From Cellulomonas sp. PhB150 (GTDB lineage: Bacteria; Actinomycetota; Actinomycetes; Actinomycetales; Cellulomonadaceae), in the NCBI RefSeq assembly GCF_003755175.1, contig NZ_RKHX01000004.1, positions 186,001 through 250,000 of the forward strand: 64,000 nt of DNA, read 5' to 3'. Positions 40,691 through 61,863 of this stretch are shown here, in pieces. A program made the position numbers and the translations under genes. Below the pieces are notes generated by a model. The model did no database searches and was not told the DNA's origin. It saw only the letters and a program-made list of their open reading frames with translations. Each line of letters opens with the position of its first letter. Within the stretch, counting starts at the first letter, position 1.

Positions 40691-40734
40691 GCCGCGTGGC
40701 GCTCCCGCGCGCCGCCCTCCCCCCCCCGCCCCCC

Positions 40735-40801
40735 GAGAACGACCCTCGCGTCCGAGGGCGACCGTTCGGGGCGGTCGTTCTCGAGCGCAGGGGTCGTTCT
40801 C
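40735..40801. repeat. Left 67-bp palindrome of cassette A
   Basis: Outer arms GAGAACGACCC (40735-40745) and GGGTCGTTCTC (40791-40801); the inner half is also self-complementary, including CCCTCG/CGAGGG (40743-40758) and CGACCG/CGGTCG (40759-40777). Same length as the right copy; 51/67 identical. Confidence 0.85.
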
Positions 40802-40819
40802 GAGGACGGGCGGCGGGGG

Positions 40820-40828
40820 TTGTCCACA
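40820..40828 (+). promoter_or_regulatory. DnaA-box-like TTGTCCACA upstream of the nuclease gene
   Basis: TTGTCCACA matches the actinobacterial DnaA-box consensus, 52 bases before the ATG. A degenerate form (GTGTCCCCA, followed by the same AGAT) lies at 53618 in cassette B at the equivalent place. May be chance or a shared promoter feature. Confidence 0.35.
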
Positions 40829-40879
40829 GATCGGCGTGAGGGCCGCCACGGCTGGCGCCGGCGCGCCACGCTGACGGGC

Positions 40880-41817
40880 ATGCCTCGTCGTCCTGGGTCG
40901 TCGTCCGGCCTCAATCCCCGAGCGGGCCGCCGCGCGTCTTCCTGGCCCGTGACCATCCACGGGAACTCATCGCCCGGATGGTCGCCAAGGGCGCTGCGGT
41001 CCCCGTGCATCGAGGTGCCTATCGACGTCCAGGGGACGACGACACGCCGCGCGACGTGGCGCTCGCCCGGATCGTCGCGGCGCACCACCAGCTCCGGGGC
41101 GAGCACGTCTTCAGCCATACGTCCGCGGCACTCCTGCATGGCCTGACGACGTGGCGCACCGCCGCGAAGGCCGAGATCTACCAAACGACGTCGCGGAGCG
41201 GTCACGGGTCCTCCCACCTGCTCCGGCACGTCCCGATGCCCCCGGTCGCGGACCGCGCCACGGTCGTCGGCCTGCCCGCCACGACCCTGGCACGGACGGC
41301 GTGGGACTGCATGTGCGTCCTGCCCGCCGGGGACGCGCTCGTCGTCGCGGATGCAGCGCTGCACGCAGGAGTCACGGCGGCCGAGCTCGGCGCTTTCGCC
41401 AGGCGCGGCGGGCGCGGTCACTCGCGAGCCATGCGCATCCTCGACGTCGCCGACGACGGGCCCGAGTCGGCGCCCGAGTCGATGTGCCGGTACCGGCTCC
41501 TGGTTGCCGGGTACCCGCCGCTGACCACCCAGATCCCGGTCGAGACGCGATTCGGCACCTACTTCGGGGATCTCGGCTGGCCCGAGTGGAGGGTGCTGTT
41601 CGAGTACGACGGCAGAGTGAAGTACGAGGGGAACGCGACGGAGACCTTCATGGCCGAGAAGCGTCGCCACGACGCTGTCGTCGAGAAGGGCTGGCGCGTG
41701 CTGCGGGTGACCAAGGAGGACCTCGCGACCCGGCGGGCCTTCGAGACGCGCGTCGCGAAGCTCGTCCCAGGGGGAGCGGCGGCCGCGCTCCACCCCCGTC
41801 GCGAGCTGCGCTGGTGA
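40880..41817 (+). pseudogene. AbiEi-like/DUF559-like nuclease gene of cassette A, N-terminal frameshift
   Basis: ATG 40880 opens MPRRPGSSSGLNP, matching the paralogue's MPRRPGARAHIEP, but the conserved body (VFLARDHPRELIARMVAKGA onward) is in another frame; the shift falls about 40919-40935 (17 bases where the paralogue has 15). No ATG/GTG/TTG exists in the body frame between the stop at 40837 and ATG 40978, which would delete half the winged helix. The body keeps HVFSHTSAALLHGL, LPATTLARTAWDC, FGDLGWPEWRVLFEYDGRVK (D, E-x-D-x-x-x-K nuclease core) and RVLRVTKEDL. Either inactive, expressed from 40978 as a 279-residue protein, or a sequencing error. Confidence 0.7.
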
Positions 41818-41842
41818 CCCGCGCCGGCAGCGACTGCTGCTC

Positions 41843-41909
41843 GAGAACGACCCTCCGGTGTGAGAGCGACCGTCCCGGAGGGTCGGTCTCACACCGGGGG
41901 GTCGTTCTC
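41843..41909. repeat. Right 67-bp palindrome of cassette A
   Basis: Arms pair over about 33 bp (41843-41875 with 41877-41909) with only two clear mismatches and a G-U pair; the outer 11 bp equal those of the left copy. It begins 25 bases after the nuclease stop. A run of G/C-only sequence (41930-42005) follows. Confidence 0.88.
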
Positions 41910-42014
41910 AGCGAGGCGATGGGCGCGCGGGCGGGGAAGCGCGGGCGGAGGGGCGGCGCGGGTCGGGGCGGGGCCGGGCGGGCCGGGGGGCGGCGGGGGC
42001 CGGCGGGGGTGGCG

Positions 42015-53396: not shown

Positions 53397-53484
53397 CGCC
53401 CGGCCCGGCCCGGCCGCCCCGGCCCGGCCGCCCCGCCCCGGCCGCCCCGGCCCGGCCCGGCGCCTCGCCACGCGCGTGCCCCGG

Positions 53485-53552
53485 CCAGGTAGTCGGTTCG
53501 GTGACGGGTAGTCGGTTGCAATCGACTACCCGTCACCAACGCGACTACCTGG
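53485..53552. repeat. Left 68-bp palindrome of cassette B
   Basis: CCAGGTAGTCG (53485-53495) pairs with CGACTACCTGG (53542-53552); the inner GGTGACGGGTAGTCG arm pairs with the matching stretch to the centre at 53518/53519. Over 34 positions only three mismatches occur. The upstream sigma gene ends 88 bases before it. Confidence 0.9.
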
Positions 53553-53677
53553 CGCCGAGCGGTCGAGGGTGGCCCCCGATCGGGTCGAGGCGACCACAGG
53601 GTTGCGTGTGCGGCGGGGTGTCCCCAGATGGCGCATCGACGGCGCTTGCTGCCTGACGGCTCGGCCAATCTGGCTCG

Positions 53678-54622
53678 ATGCCACGTCGCCCGGGAGCGAG
53701 AGCCCATATCGAACCCGCTTTCCTGCCCGAGGTGTGGCTCGCTCGGGACCGCCCGCCGGACGTGGTGCGCGAACTGGTCCGCTCCGGCCGGTGGGCGCGA
53801 GTCGCACGTGGCATCTACCTGGCGGCGAAGGGCCCTGACGGCGAGCTTCCGATCGAGCGCGCGCGCCGGCACGCACTCGGGGTGATCGTCGGCAGCCATC
53901 GCCGCCTGAACTGCGACCACTGGTTCTCGCACACGTCGGCGGCGCTCGTCTGGGGGCTGCCGACCTGGCGGTTGCCGAGCAGCGCCCACGTCTTGTGCAG
54001 AGAACGCGCCGGAAGCCAAAGGGCCTCGTGGCTGACCAGTCATCACGGCGAGGTCGTCGACAGCGAGGTCACCGAGGTGAGCGGCCTGCCTGTGACGACG
54101 TTGGCGCGAACGGTCGCGGACTGCCTCATGACCCTTCCCCCGCTCGATGCCCTCGTCGTGGCAGATGCCGCGCTCCATCGCGGACTCACCCTGGAGTCCC
54201 TCGAGTCGACACTTCGTGCCCGCAGGGGACGCGCCGGCTCCACACGGGCTCGCGCCGTGCTCGATGTGGCCGACGACGGAGCCGAGTCCTCTGGCGAGTC
54301 AGCCAGCCGATTCGTGCTGCTGCGGGACGGGTTGCCCGCGCCCACGACGCAGATCCCTGTCAGCACGCGGCTGGGCACGTACTGGGTCGATCTGGGGTGG
54401 GAGGAGTGGGGGCTGCTCCTCGAGTACGACGGCCGCGTCAAGTACGCGTCGCGAGCCGATCTGATGCAGGAGAAGCGCCGCGGCGACGCACTTGTCGAGG
54501 CGGGTGGCACGGTGCTTCGCGTGACCCACGAGGACCTCGCGACTCTCTCGCGCAGAGTTCTGCCTCATCTGCCGCGCTCGGTGCAACGGTCAGTCCAGCC
54601 CCGCCGCGCACTCGCGGCATGA
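53678..54622 (+). CDS. AbiEi-like winged-helix plus Vsr/DUF559-like nuclease of cassette B
   Basis: 314 residues. N-terminal winged helix (about 12-50, LARDRPPDVVRELVRSGRWA, RVARGIYLA) of the AbiEi type; middle part with DHWFSHTSAALVWGLPTWR and GLPVTTLARTVADCLMTLPP; C-terminal PD-(D/E)XK-like core with acidic VADDGAESSGES, YWVDLGWEEWGLLLEYDGRV (D, E-x-D-x-x-x-K) and TVLRVTHEDLATL. Full-length homologue of the broken copy at 40880. It may cut or bind DNA at its own palindromes; no AbiEii toxin is present, so a type IV toxin-antitoxin role is unsupported. ATG 53678 gives the family start MPRRPG. Confidence 0.8.
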   Translation: MPRRPGARAHIEPAFLPEVWLARDRPPDVVRELVRSGRWARVARGIYLAAKGPDGELPIERARRHALGVIVGSHRRLNCDHWFSHTSAALVWGLPTWRLPSSAHVLCRERAGSQRASWLTSHHGEVVDSEVTEVSGLPVTTLARTVADCLMTLPPLDALVVADAALHRGLTLESLESTLRARRGRAGSTRARAVLDVADDGAESSGESASRFVLLRDGLPAPTTQIPVSTRLGTYWVDLGWEEWGLLLEYDGRVKYASRADLMQEKRRGDALVEAGGTVLRVTHEDLATLSRRVLPHLPRSVQRSVQPRRALAA

Positions 54623-54634
54623 CGACTCACCTCG

Positions 54635-54702
54635 CCAGGTAGTCGAATCGGTGACGGGTAGTCGGTTGTAACCGACTACCCGTCACCAGACCCACTACCG
54701 CG
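54635..54702. repeat. Right 68-bp palindrome of cassette B
   Basis: Starts CCAGGTAGTCGAATCGGTGA; inner arms GGTGACGGGTAGTCGGTT and its complement meet at 54668/54669. 58/68 identical to the left copy; the outermost right arm has drifted (CACTACCGCG). It begins 12 bases after the nuclease stop. Confidence 0.9.
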
Positions 54703-61770: not shown

Positions 61771-61863
61771 GGTGCGTGTTCCTCCATCGTCTGGAGGGGT
61801 CTCCGCGCTCGTCGTCGGTGACCTGCAGGCGCCCGACGACGACCACGGAGATGAGAAGCCCGA

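Follow-up and report, generated by a model that had tools for sequence, protein, structure and literature searches.

Two cassettes of one design lie in the window, as we call the whole 64-kb stretch of DNA analyzed here from Cellulomonas sp. PhB150 (genome G000), and at both A and B a single gene is enclosed between two palindromes (Table 1). The initial annotation had described the palindromes of cassette A as a 67-bp pair (40735-40801 and 41843-41909) that is identical at 51/67 positions and has perfect outer arms of 11 bp, all of which proved exact on recomputation. Within the arms, 25/33 positions are paired in the upstream copy and 30/33 in the downstream one, and if the symmetric outer C/G is counted, the upstream palindrome reaches 69 bp, the length of the dispersed (solo) copies discussed below. 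The two genes had also been called paralogues on the same strand, and their palindromes had been said to have no resemblance to each other; indeed, the proteins are 50% identical, both genes read in the plus direction, and the A and B palindromes agree at 23 positions in their best ungapped match, where shuffled B averages 22.6. Both genes are intergenic, and the presumed target on each side of them is complete and uninterrupted.

Table 1. Positions of the features of cassettes A and B within the window
Feature	Position	Strand	Description
Upstream palindrome A	40734..40802	.	Half-site type GAGAACGACC; half-sites 40735-40744, 40754-40763; inverted 40773-40782, 40792-40801
DnaA-box-like element TTGTCCACAG	40820..40829	+	TCCACAG starts 57 nt 5' of the ATG
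Gene A	40880..41817	+	Predicted AbiEi-type DNA-binding fold and Vsr-like nuclease domain, assigned via homology to B
Downstream palindrome A	41842..41910	.	Half-sites 41843-41852, 41862-41871; inverted 41881-41890, 41900-41909
Upstream palindrome B	53484..53553	.	Half-site type GGTAGTCG
Gene B	53678..54622	+	Intact paralogue of gene A; predicted model with mean pLDDT 94.1
Downstream palindrome B	about 54637..54700	.	

Unlike as they are in sequence, the A and B palindromes are alike in design, which becomes visible only when many palindromes are compared. Specifically, each arm carries a half-site of about 12 nt twice, 19 bp from start to start, and inversion of the arms around the center brings the total to four copies. 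Seven spacer positions between the half-sites also pair (0.69 versus approximately 0.33 expected, across 103 palindromes, leaving out L014, L018, L034, and palindromes that score below 64 or have a period other than 19), so the whole unit is palindromic, beyond four separate sites. A gap-free palindrome scan of the window returned seven matches with scores of at least 13.5, the top four of which (18.6 to 26.4) are those of the two cassettes, against a maximum of 15.0 in three second-order Markov controls. A scan for the four-half-site design returned five matches of at least 60, namely, the four cassette palindromes and a low-complexity CCCGG repeat at 53398-53461. Chance palindromes at the cassettes are ruled out by these scans, together with the nearly empty flank controls described below. 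Elsewhere in the window, another palindrome at 61800-61851 scores 15.0 (21/26 paired), equal to the control maximum, and is not of the four-half-site kind.

Gene A measures 938 nt from ATG to stop and is thus frameshifted near its start (40880-40978), with an intact downstream ORF at 40978-41817. In L048, a close A-type homologue, the frame stays open at the point where it breaks here, and the frame of gene A is also shifted relative to that of L014. From its sequence, gene A looks inactivated in PhB150, unless a misassembly produced the frameshift. The element between the upstream palindrome and the gene, with its core TCCACAG, resembles a DnaA box.

Profile searches with 36 family members gave weak Pfam matches to AbiEi_4 (11/36), REase_MTES_1575 (8/36), AbiEi_1 (4/36), and DUF559 (2/36), while PADLOC AbiEi profiles matched all 36 and NCBIfam gave no match for the protein. 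The structure of protein B was considered as a model, predicted from 36 homologues. In this model, residues 17-199 resemble the AbiEi antitoxin 6y8q (Z 10.7, rmsd 6.2 over 165), residues 204-303 resemble the catalytic domain of I-Bth0305I, 3r3p (Z 10.2, rmsd 2.7 over 91), and residues 202-300 resemble Vsr, 1cw0 (Z 8.4, rmsd 2.5 over 94). Taken together, the AbiEi and Vsr-like matches indicate that the protein, as modeled, combines a DNA-binding part with the AbiEi-type fold and a nuclease-like part, the fold of which is of the Vsr/homing-endonuclease type. Twenty-seven alignment columns are invariant, including D238, E249, D251, and K255 (36/36 members). Because of the fold, we read these four residues as presumably catalytic, and their invariance is consistent with active cleavage or nicking.

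Homologues occur in at least 171 of the 221 genomes of the window's family (E <= 1e-20, among the matches listed) and in 82 of 396 genomes of the phylum, with PhB150 counted. We analyzed 80 loci, 79 of them distinct (78 from the window's family and one from a MAG); these 79 are high-ranking matches to protein B with a few lower ones, amounting to about half of the matches listed, and thus form a non-random sample. A single-protein scan of genome contigs returned four loci only. With L014 (on the same contig as L048) left out of the flank scores, a four-half-site palindrome scoring at least 60 was found upstream at 67/79 loci and downstream at 63/78, on both sides at 55/78, and on at least one side at 75/79, compared with 4/145 control windows further out. 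At a stricter cut-off of 64, the counts were 56/79 upstream, 55/78 downstream, 42 on both sides, and 69 on at least one. The four control windows (L044, L081, L047, and L074) score 67 to 79 and so are probably real palindromes further out. Neither flank reached 60 at L033, L040, L046, and L063, where palindrome scores stayed below the null maximum of 14.2; the alignment of upstream against downstream flank scored 52.0 at L033 and 43.5 at L040, where the 99th percentile of the controls was 48.7. From the end of the upstream palindrome to the ATG, the median distance is 103 nt (56 loci), and from the stop codon to the start of the downstream one, it is 16 nt (54 loci). TCCACAG occurs on either strand 40-100 nt before the start codon at 45/77 loci versus 3/2,972 background windows, most commonly at -58/-57 (23 loci); L013, L014, and one locus short of upstream DNA are left out of these start-distance counts. 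The flanks of L023 hold extended tandem arrays of half-sites, with more than four copies, beside the gene.

The pairing extends beyond the window's family. Among 29 loci that the phylum search returned automatically from other families and classes, 24 have upstream and downstream repeats that match each other better than 99% of 812 mismatched pairings. In the five that fall short, two palindromes are visible at L203 and at L208, at least one at L200 and at L202, and none at L205. Many of the flanking repeats outside the window's family are without the 19-bp four-site design.

The initial annotation had proposed that each protein keeps its own cognate palindrome, in the manner of RAYT-REP pairs, and that the type of palindrome follows the clade of the protein. 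The best match of the upstream palindrome was the downstream palindrome of the same locus at 37/52 loci, and it ranked in the top three at 48/52 (L014 left out and L018 entered with its downstream palindrome only). Between loci, the half-site was shared, counted as a motif similarity over 7, by 24 of the 27 protein pairs with at least 67% identity and by 6 of the 2,674 pairs below it; this comparison covers 74 of the 80 loci, leaving out L014 and five loci without a palindrome of at least 62. By identity bin, sharing fell from 13/14 (at least 75%) and 11/13 (67-75%) to 0/26 (60-67%), 6/353 (50-60%), and 0/2,295 (below 50%). When all pairs are ranked together, the correlation is weak (Mantel r 0.20, a value that 0/499 permutations reach), probably because the motifs saturate. 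Windowed correlations between protein and motif ranged from r 0.02 to 0.19 (-0.03 in one window), with partial r of at most 0.10, and were slightly higher in the nuclease half. Half-sites that follow protein identity in this way rule out a single repeat family that came by chance to surround unrelated genes, and the proposal of cognate pairs is borne out by the flanking pairs, by the match to protein clade, and by dispersed copies that go with the gene.

Comparison with other genomes, among which G055 is the closest relative seen, places cassette A at the orthologous position in G032 and G055 and cassette B in G032, G055, and G079. Given these orthologous loci, the gene looks inherited, without visible hopping. 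The half-site type nevertheless differs at the same locus: at the B locus, it is GGTAGTCG in PhB150, TCGCCGA in G055 and G032, and GTCGCGGGT in G079, and at the A locus, it is GAGAACGACC in PhB150 and G055 versus GAGACCGTTAC in G032, where only the downstream palindrome was found. G079 also has an A-like homologue with GAGACAGACC, the neighbors of which did not match those of A. Between PhB150 and G032, proteins A and B are 61% and 63% identical, while four neighbors are 80-91% identical; between PhB150 and G055, B is 63% and A is 87% identical, while five neighbors are 81-95% identical. As judged from these identities, the gene mostly evolves faster than its neighbors, the exception being A between PhB150 and G055.

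The solo sites, for their part, come and go. Site L088 has no counterpart in G032, the first site of L095 has none in G032, G055, or G079, the second has none in G055, and the double site L090 has none in G055 or G032; the same test recovers the own copies of L090 and the first L095 site in PhB150. L086 and L096 are common to PhB150 and G055, and one G055 contig begins inside L087. All of these presence/absence comparisons are between species, and the empty sites appear as ragged intergenic replacements, in which no clean junction, insertion, or target duplication was seen.

Dispersed copies of four types were followed. In PhB150, 13 solo type-A palindromes of 69 bp each were found, and across 15 type-A copies, column conservation averages 0.86 within the 69 bp and 0.54-0.57 in the 25 bp outside. 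Among 81 genomes of the genus, only PhB150 and G055 have type A, and both carry an A-type gene. Type B is present in PhB150 as the cassette and four solo sites and in G079 as two partial matches, with no four-half-site palindrome of at least 61 there. The TCGCCGATT type, which is that of the B-locus cassette in G032 and of L018, occurs in G032, in G055, whose cassette is also of this type, and five times in PhB150, where no such cassette was found. These five copies have 7-11 mismatches to the four-half-site consensus, versus 2-7 in eight solo copies from G032 and G055, although the consensus was drawn from the best-scoring genomes themselves. For two of the five, G055 has an aligning copy at the corresponding position. 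To judge from this decay, the TCGCCGATT-type copies in PhB150 look like fossils of the B-locus type before its switch. When 400 kb of G032 were scanned without bias, nine matches scored at least 64, against a peak of 61.8 in two Markov controls: seven are of the type of the B-locus cassette, one is the A-locus palindrome, and one is of another type. A strong four-half-site palindrome of type CCGACCGCGGGT lies at the start of a G032 contig (G032:C1:49-120), with no cassette known to adjoin it.

The fourth type, CGCTGCGT, was found in 10 of the 17 genomes of another genus (g5). It is carried by 5/5 genomes with a close protein (at least 69% identity) and by 5/12 without one. Among the latter, G113 retains a decayed cassette in which two palindromes enclose a gene remnant of some 30 codons (L159, 3484-3828), G123, a genome 75% complete, has two bare palindromes 26 bp apart (L167, 3350-3511), and three have a few CGCTGCGT sites that are unexplained. 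Nine solo copies were counted in G112. Several g5 genomes also encode a second, more distant homologue, with a stop codon inside the match in 6 of 35 cases (G112:C1:3695097, G113:C11:80500, G121:C1:1992889, G113:C13:35193, G116:C1:4271361, and G124:C7:20390), which may reflect repeated decay. Across the four types tested, the genomic distribution indicates that dispersed copies are concentrated in genomes with the matching gene or its traces; the exceptions to a strict link are the decayed copies in PhB150, the gene remnant, the two bare palindromes, and the three g5 genomes with few sites. Some solo copies lie in pairs with 94-151 bp between them (L090 2505-2738, G032:C1 63790-64072, and G032:C1 318074-318301), and these three pairs may be cassette remnants or BIME-like doublets.

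We consider it probable that the cassette is a nuclease-driven, REP-like element that works much as RAYT-REP does but is of independent origin, with an AbiEi-Vsr gene between its cognate palindromes and copies scattered over the genome. At the level of sequence comparison, this reading builds on palindromes that flank the gene in pairs and have the four-half-site design, on half-sites that go with the clade of the protein, on dispersed copies that, for the four types tested, are concentrated in genomes with the matching gene or its traces, on the presence and absence of copies between species, on a gene that mostly diverges faster than its neighbors, and on the change of type at orthologous loci. 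In the mechanism we envisage, the AbiEi part would recognize the half-sites, with several protomers assembling on one palindrome, and the Vsr-like domain would nick or cut the palindrome, either as duplex or as extruded hairpin. Repair or strand transfer could then copy the palindrome to new sites and keep the copies alike, and upon gene death or a change of specificity, the copies would be expected to decay. Several points count against this explanation: no transposition event was caught, the gene looks inherited at fixed loci, solo copies are few, gene A has diverged no more than its neighbors between PhB150 and G055, five g5 genomes have the palindrome but no close protein, and the A locus of G032 yielded a downstream palindrome only. 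A broader form of the proposal, which to us is evenly balanced between true and false, holds that there is a phylum-wide REP-like class run by an AbiEi-Vsr fusion nuclease and independent of RAYTs, in which recognition is switched in place and both flanks follow, old copies fossilize while new ones appear, and the DnaA-box-like site ties activity to replication.

Alternatively, the protein could be a self-regulating transcription factor, with the AbiEi-type domain repressing its own gene via the upstream palindrome, the solo copies serving as operators of a small regulon, and the nuclease-like domain having some other job. AbiEi and Rv2827c do bind and repress their own promoters, at two and four inverted 23-bp repeats, respectively (PMC7319586, as excerpted here), and the four half-sites per palindrome and the position of the upstream palindrome relative to the ATG would suit such a role. 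We nonetheless regard this as unlikely, given that the palindrome downstream of the gene is just as strong, that the sites come and go between close species, and that the presumed catalytic residues are invariant. In addition, the surroundings of 22 solo copies were tandem in 10 cases, convergent in 6, divergent in 2, and of no called arrangement in 4, by a rough ORF calling that put two copies inside an ORF. Slightly less probable again is a chromosome-organizing or repair system (parS-, matS-, or Chi-like), for which the palindromes would be host sites of a protein acting in replication or recombination. Inheritance at fixed loci, the enrichment of TCCACAG upstream of the gene, and the clustering of 6/13 solo type-A sites on the 484-kb contig C4 that bears the cassette (binomial P 0.003, post hoc, in one genome) speak for it, whereas housekeeping systems would not be expected to differ in site sequence and gene between sister species or to be without a match in 50 of 221 family genomes (E <= 1e-20, among the matches listed). 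Against both of these main rivals speak the palindrome downstream of the gene, the turnover of sites between species, and the switching of types.

A role in defense or self/non-self marking, in which the nuclease attacks DNA without, or with, its palindrome, seems to us a slim prospect. AbiE is a phage-defense family, and both the PADLOC matches and the nuclease fold point in this direction, but no toxin partner was found among the scanned neighbors of A and B, and the model gives no need for two flanking copies. Further, relatives of protein B were absent from 72,556 plasmid records (E <= 1e-10) and 50,697 phage records (E <= 1e-5), and a pattern scan with alignment A1 matched no viral contig; for these queries, protein B and alignment A1 only, carriage of the cassettes by phages or plasmids is thereby rejected. 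Finally, intergenic palindromes are common in GC-rich genomes, but that these are passive repeats, whether ordinary terminators or REPs spread by other means with the gene among them by chance, is very hard to credit in light of the protein-specific half-sites, the matched pairs at most of the phylum loci, and the almost empty controls.

If the reading of the cassette as a nuclease-driven, REP-like element is correct, then it bears on how such repeats arise. The best-known account of REP-type palindromes involves a single family of enzymes, the RAYTs; if an unrelated protein behaves likewise, then cognate palindrome-nuclease pairs arose more than once. Such a protein would also provide a functional lead for many actinobacterial genes now annotated as AbiEi-like or DUF559, and the many natural pairs of protein and target would be material with which to decode DNA recognition. 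Specificity switching and fossil copies could likewise be traced across sister species. The interpretation offered in the initial annotation is supported by these sequence data, which carry it beyond a single window to the phylum.

Several known systems share features with the one described here. The closest in habit is RAYT/TnpA-REP (the REPtron), for which a flanking palindrome pair, co-evolution of palindrome and protein, a fast-evolving gene, and a correlation of copies with the gene are described in the portion of PMC2817692 used here. Likewise, two cognate palindromes flank the gene of our family, on both sides at most loci, palindrome and protein co-evolve, the gene mostly outpaces its neighbors in divergence, and dispersed copies go with the gene in four types; the likeness to RAYT-REP thus reaches further than had been claimed from the window. 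In contrast, the protein here is predicted to combine an AbiEi fold with a Vsr-like nuclease, and the HUH/Y1 transposase domain (PF01797) had no Pfam match in 36 members (E <= 0.01) or in protein B (E <= 10). The palindrome is approximately 68 bp with four half-sites, and inspection revealed no common GT(A/G)G head beside it (GTAG/GTGG in RAYT-REP), as half-sites vary by locus and B contains GGTAG while A does not. Solo copies number 4-13 where counted, versus usually over 100 for RAYT-REP, and the hosts are Actinomycetota, whereas suitable RAYT homologues were found only in gammaproteobacteria according to the same portion of PMC2817692. Because there is neither an HUH match nor a GTAG head, RAYT-REP does not provide a home for the family.

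AbiE type IV toxin-antitoxin systems share the N-terminal two-domain fold, as predicted by the model, and their AbiEi and Rv2827c are known to bind inverted-repeat arrays, which the protein here would do by analogy of fold. They differ in that our protein has a nuclease fusion and its repeats flank the gene on both sides and are dispersed. Because the toxin gene is missing, AbiE is no home for the family either: no gene for an AbiEii nucleotidyltransferase was found among the seven ORFs scanned beside A and B, six of which have a Pfam family and one of which has none. Vsr endonuclease and I-Bth0305I share the fold of the catalytic domain, again in the predicted model; here, the gene stands alone between chromosomal genes, and its two presumed targets flank it unsplit. 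REase_MTES_1575 (PF18741) and DUF559 (PF04480) match the family weakly; the former has been termed a novel Vsr REase (PMC3710099), and the excerpt of that paper places it within a large HEPN-associated protein, as one of its domains, and mentions no palindrome association. RepRanger reports REPs in three Actinomycetota, with no mention of a RAYT or nuclease in the excerpted text (PMC12306157), and no such palindrome-nuclease pair was recognized in the open-licence literature, taken mostly as titles and abstract openings (including PMC3733652 and PMC8266576). The system corresponds in full to no known family, although its working principle resembles that of RAYT-REP.
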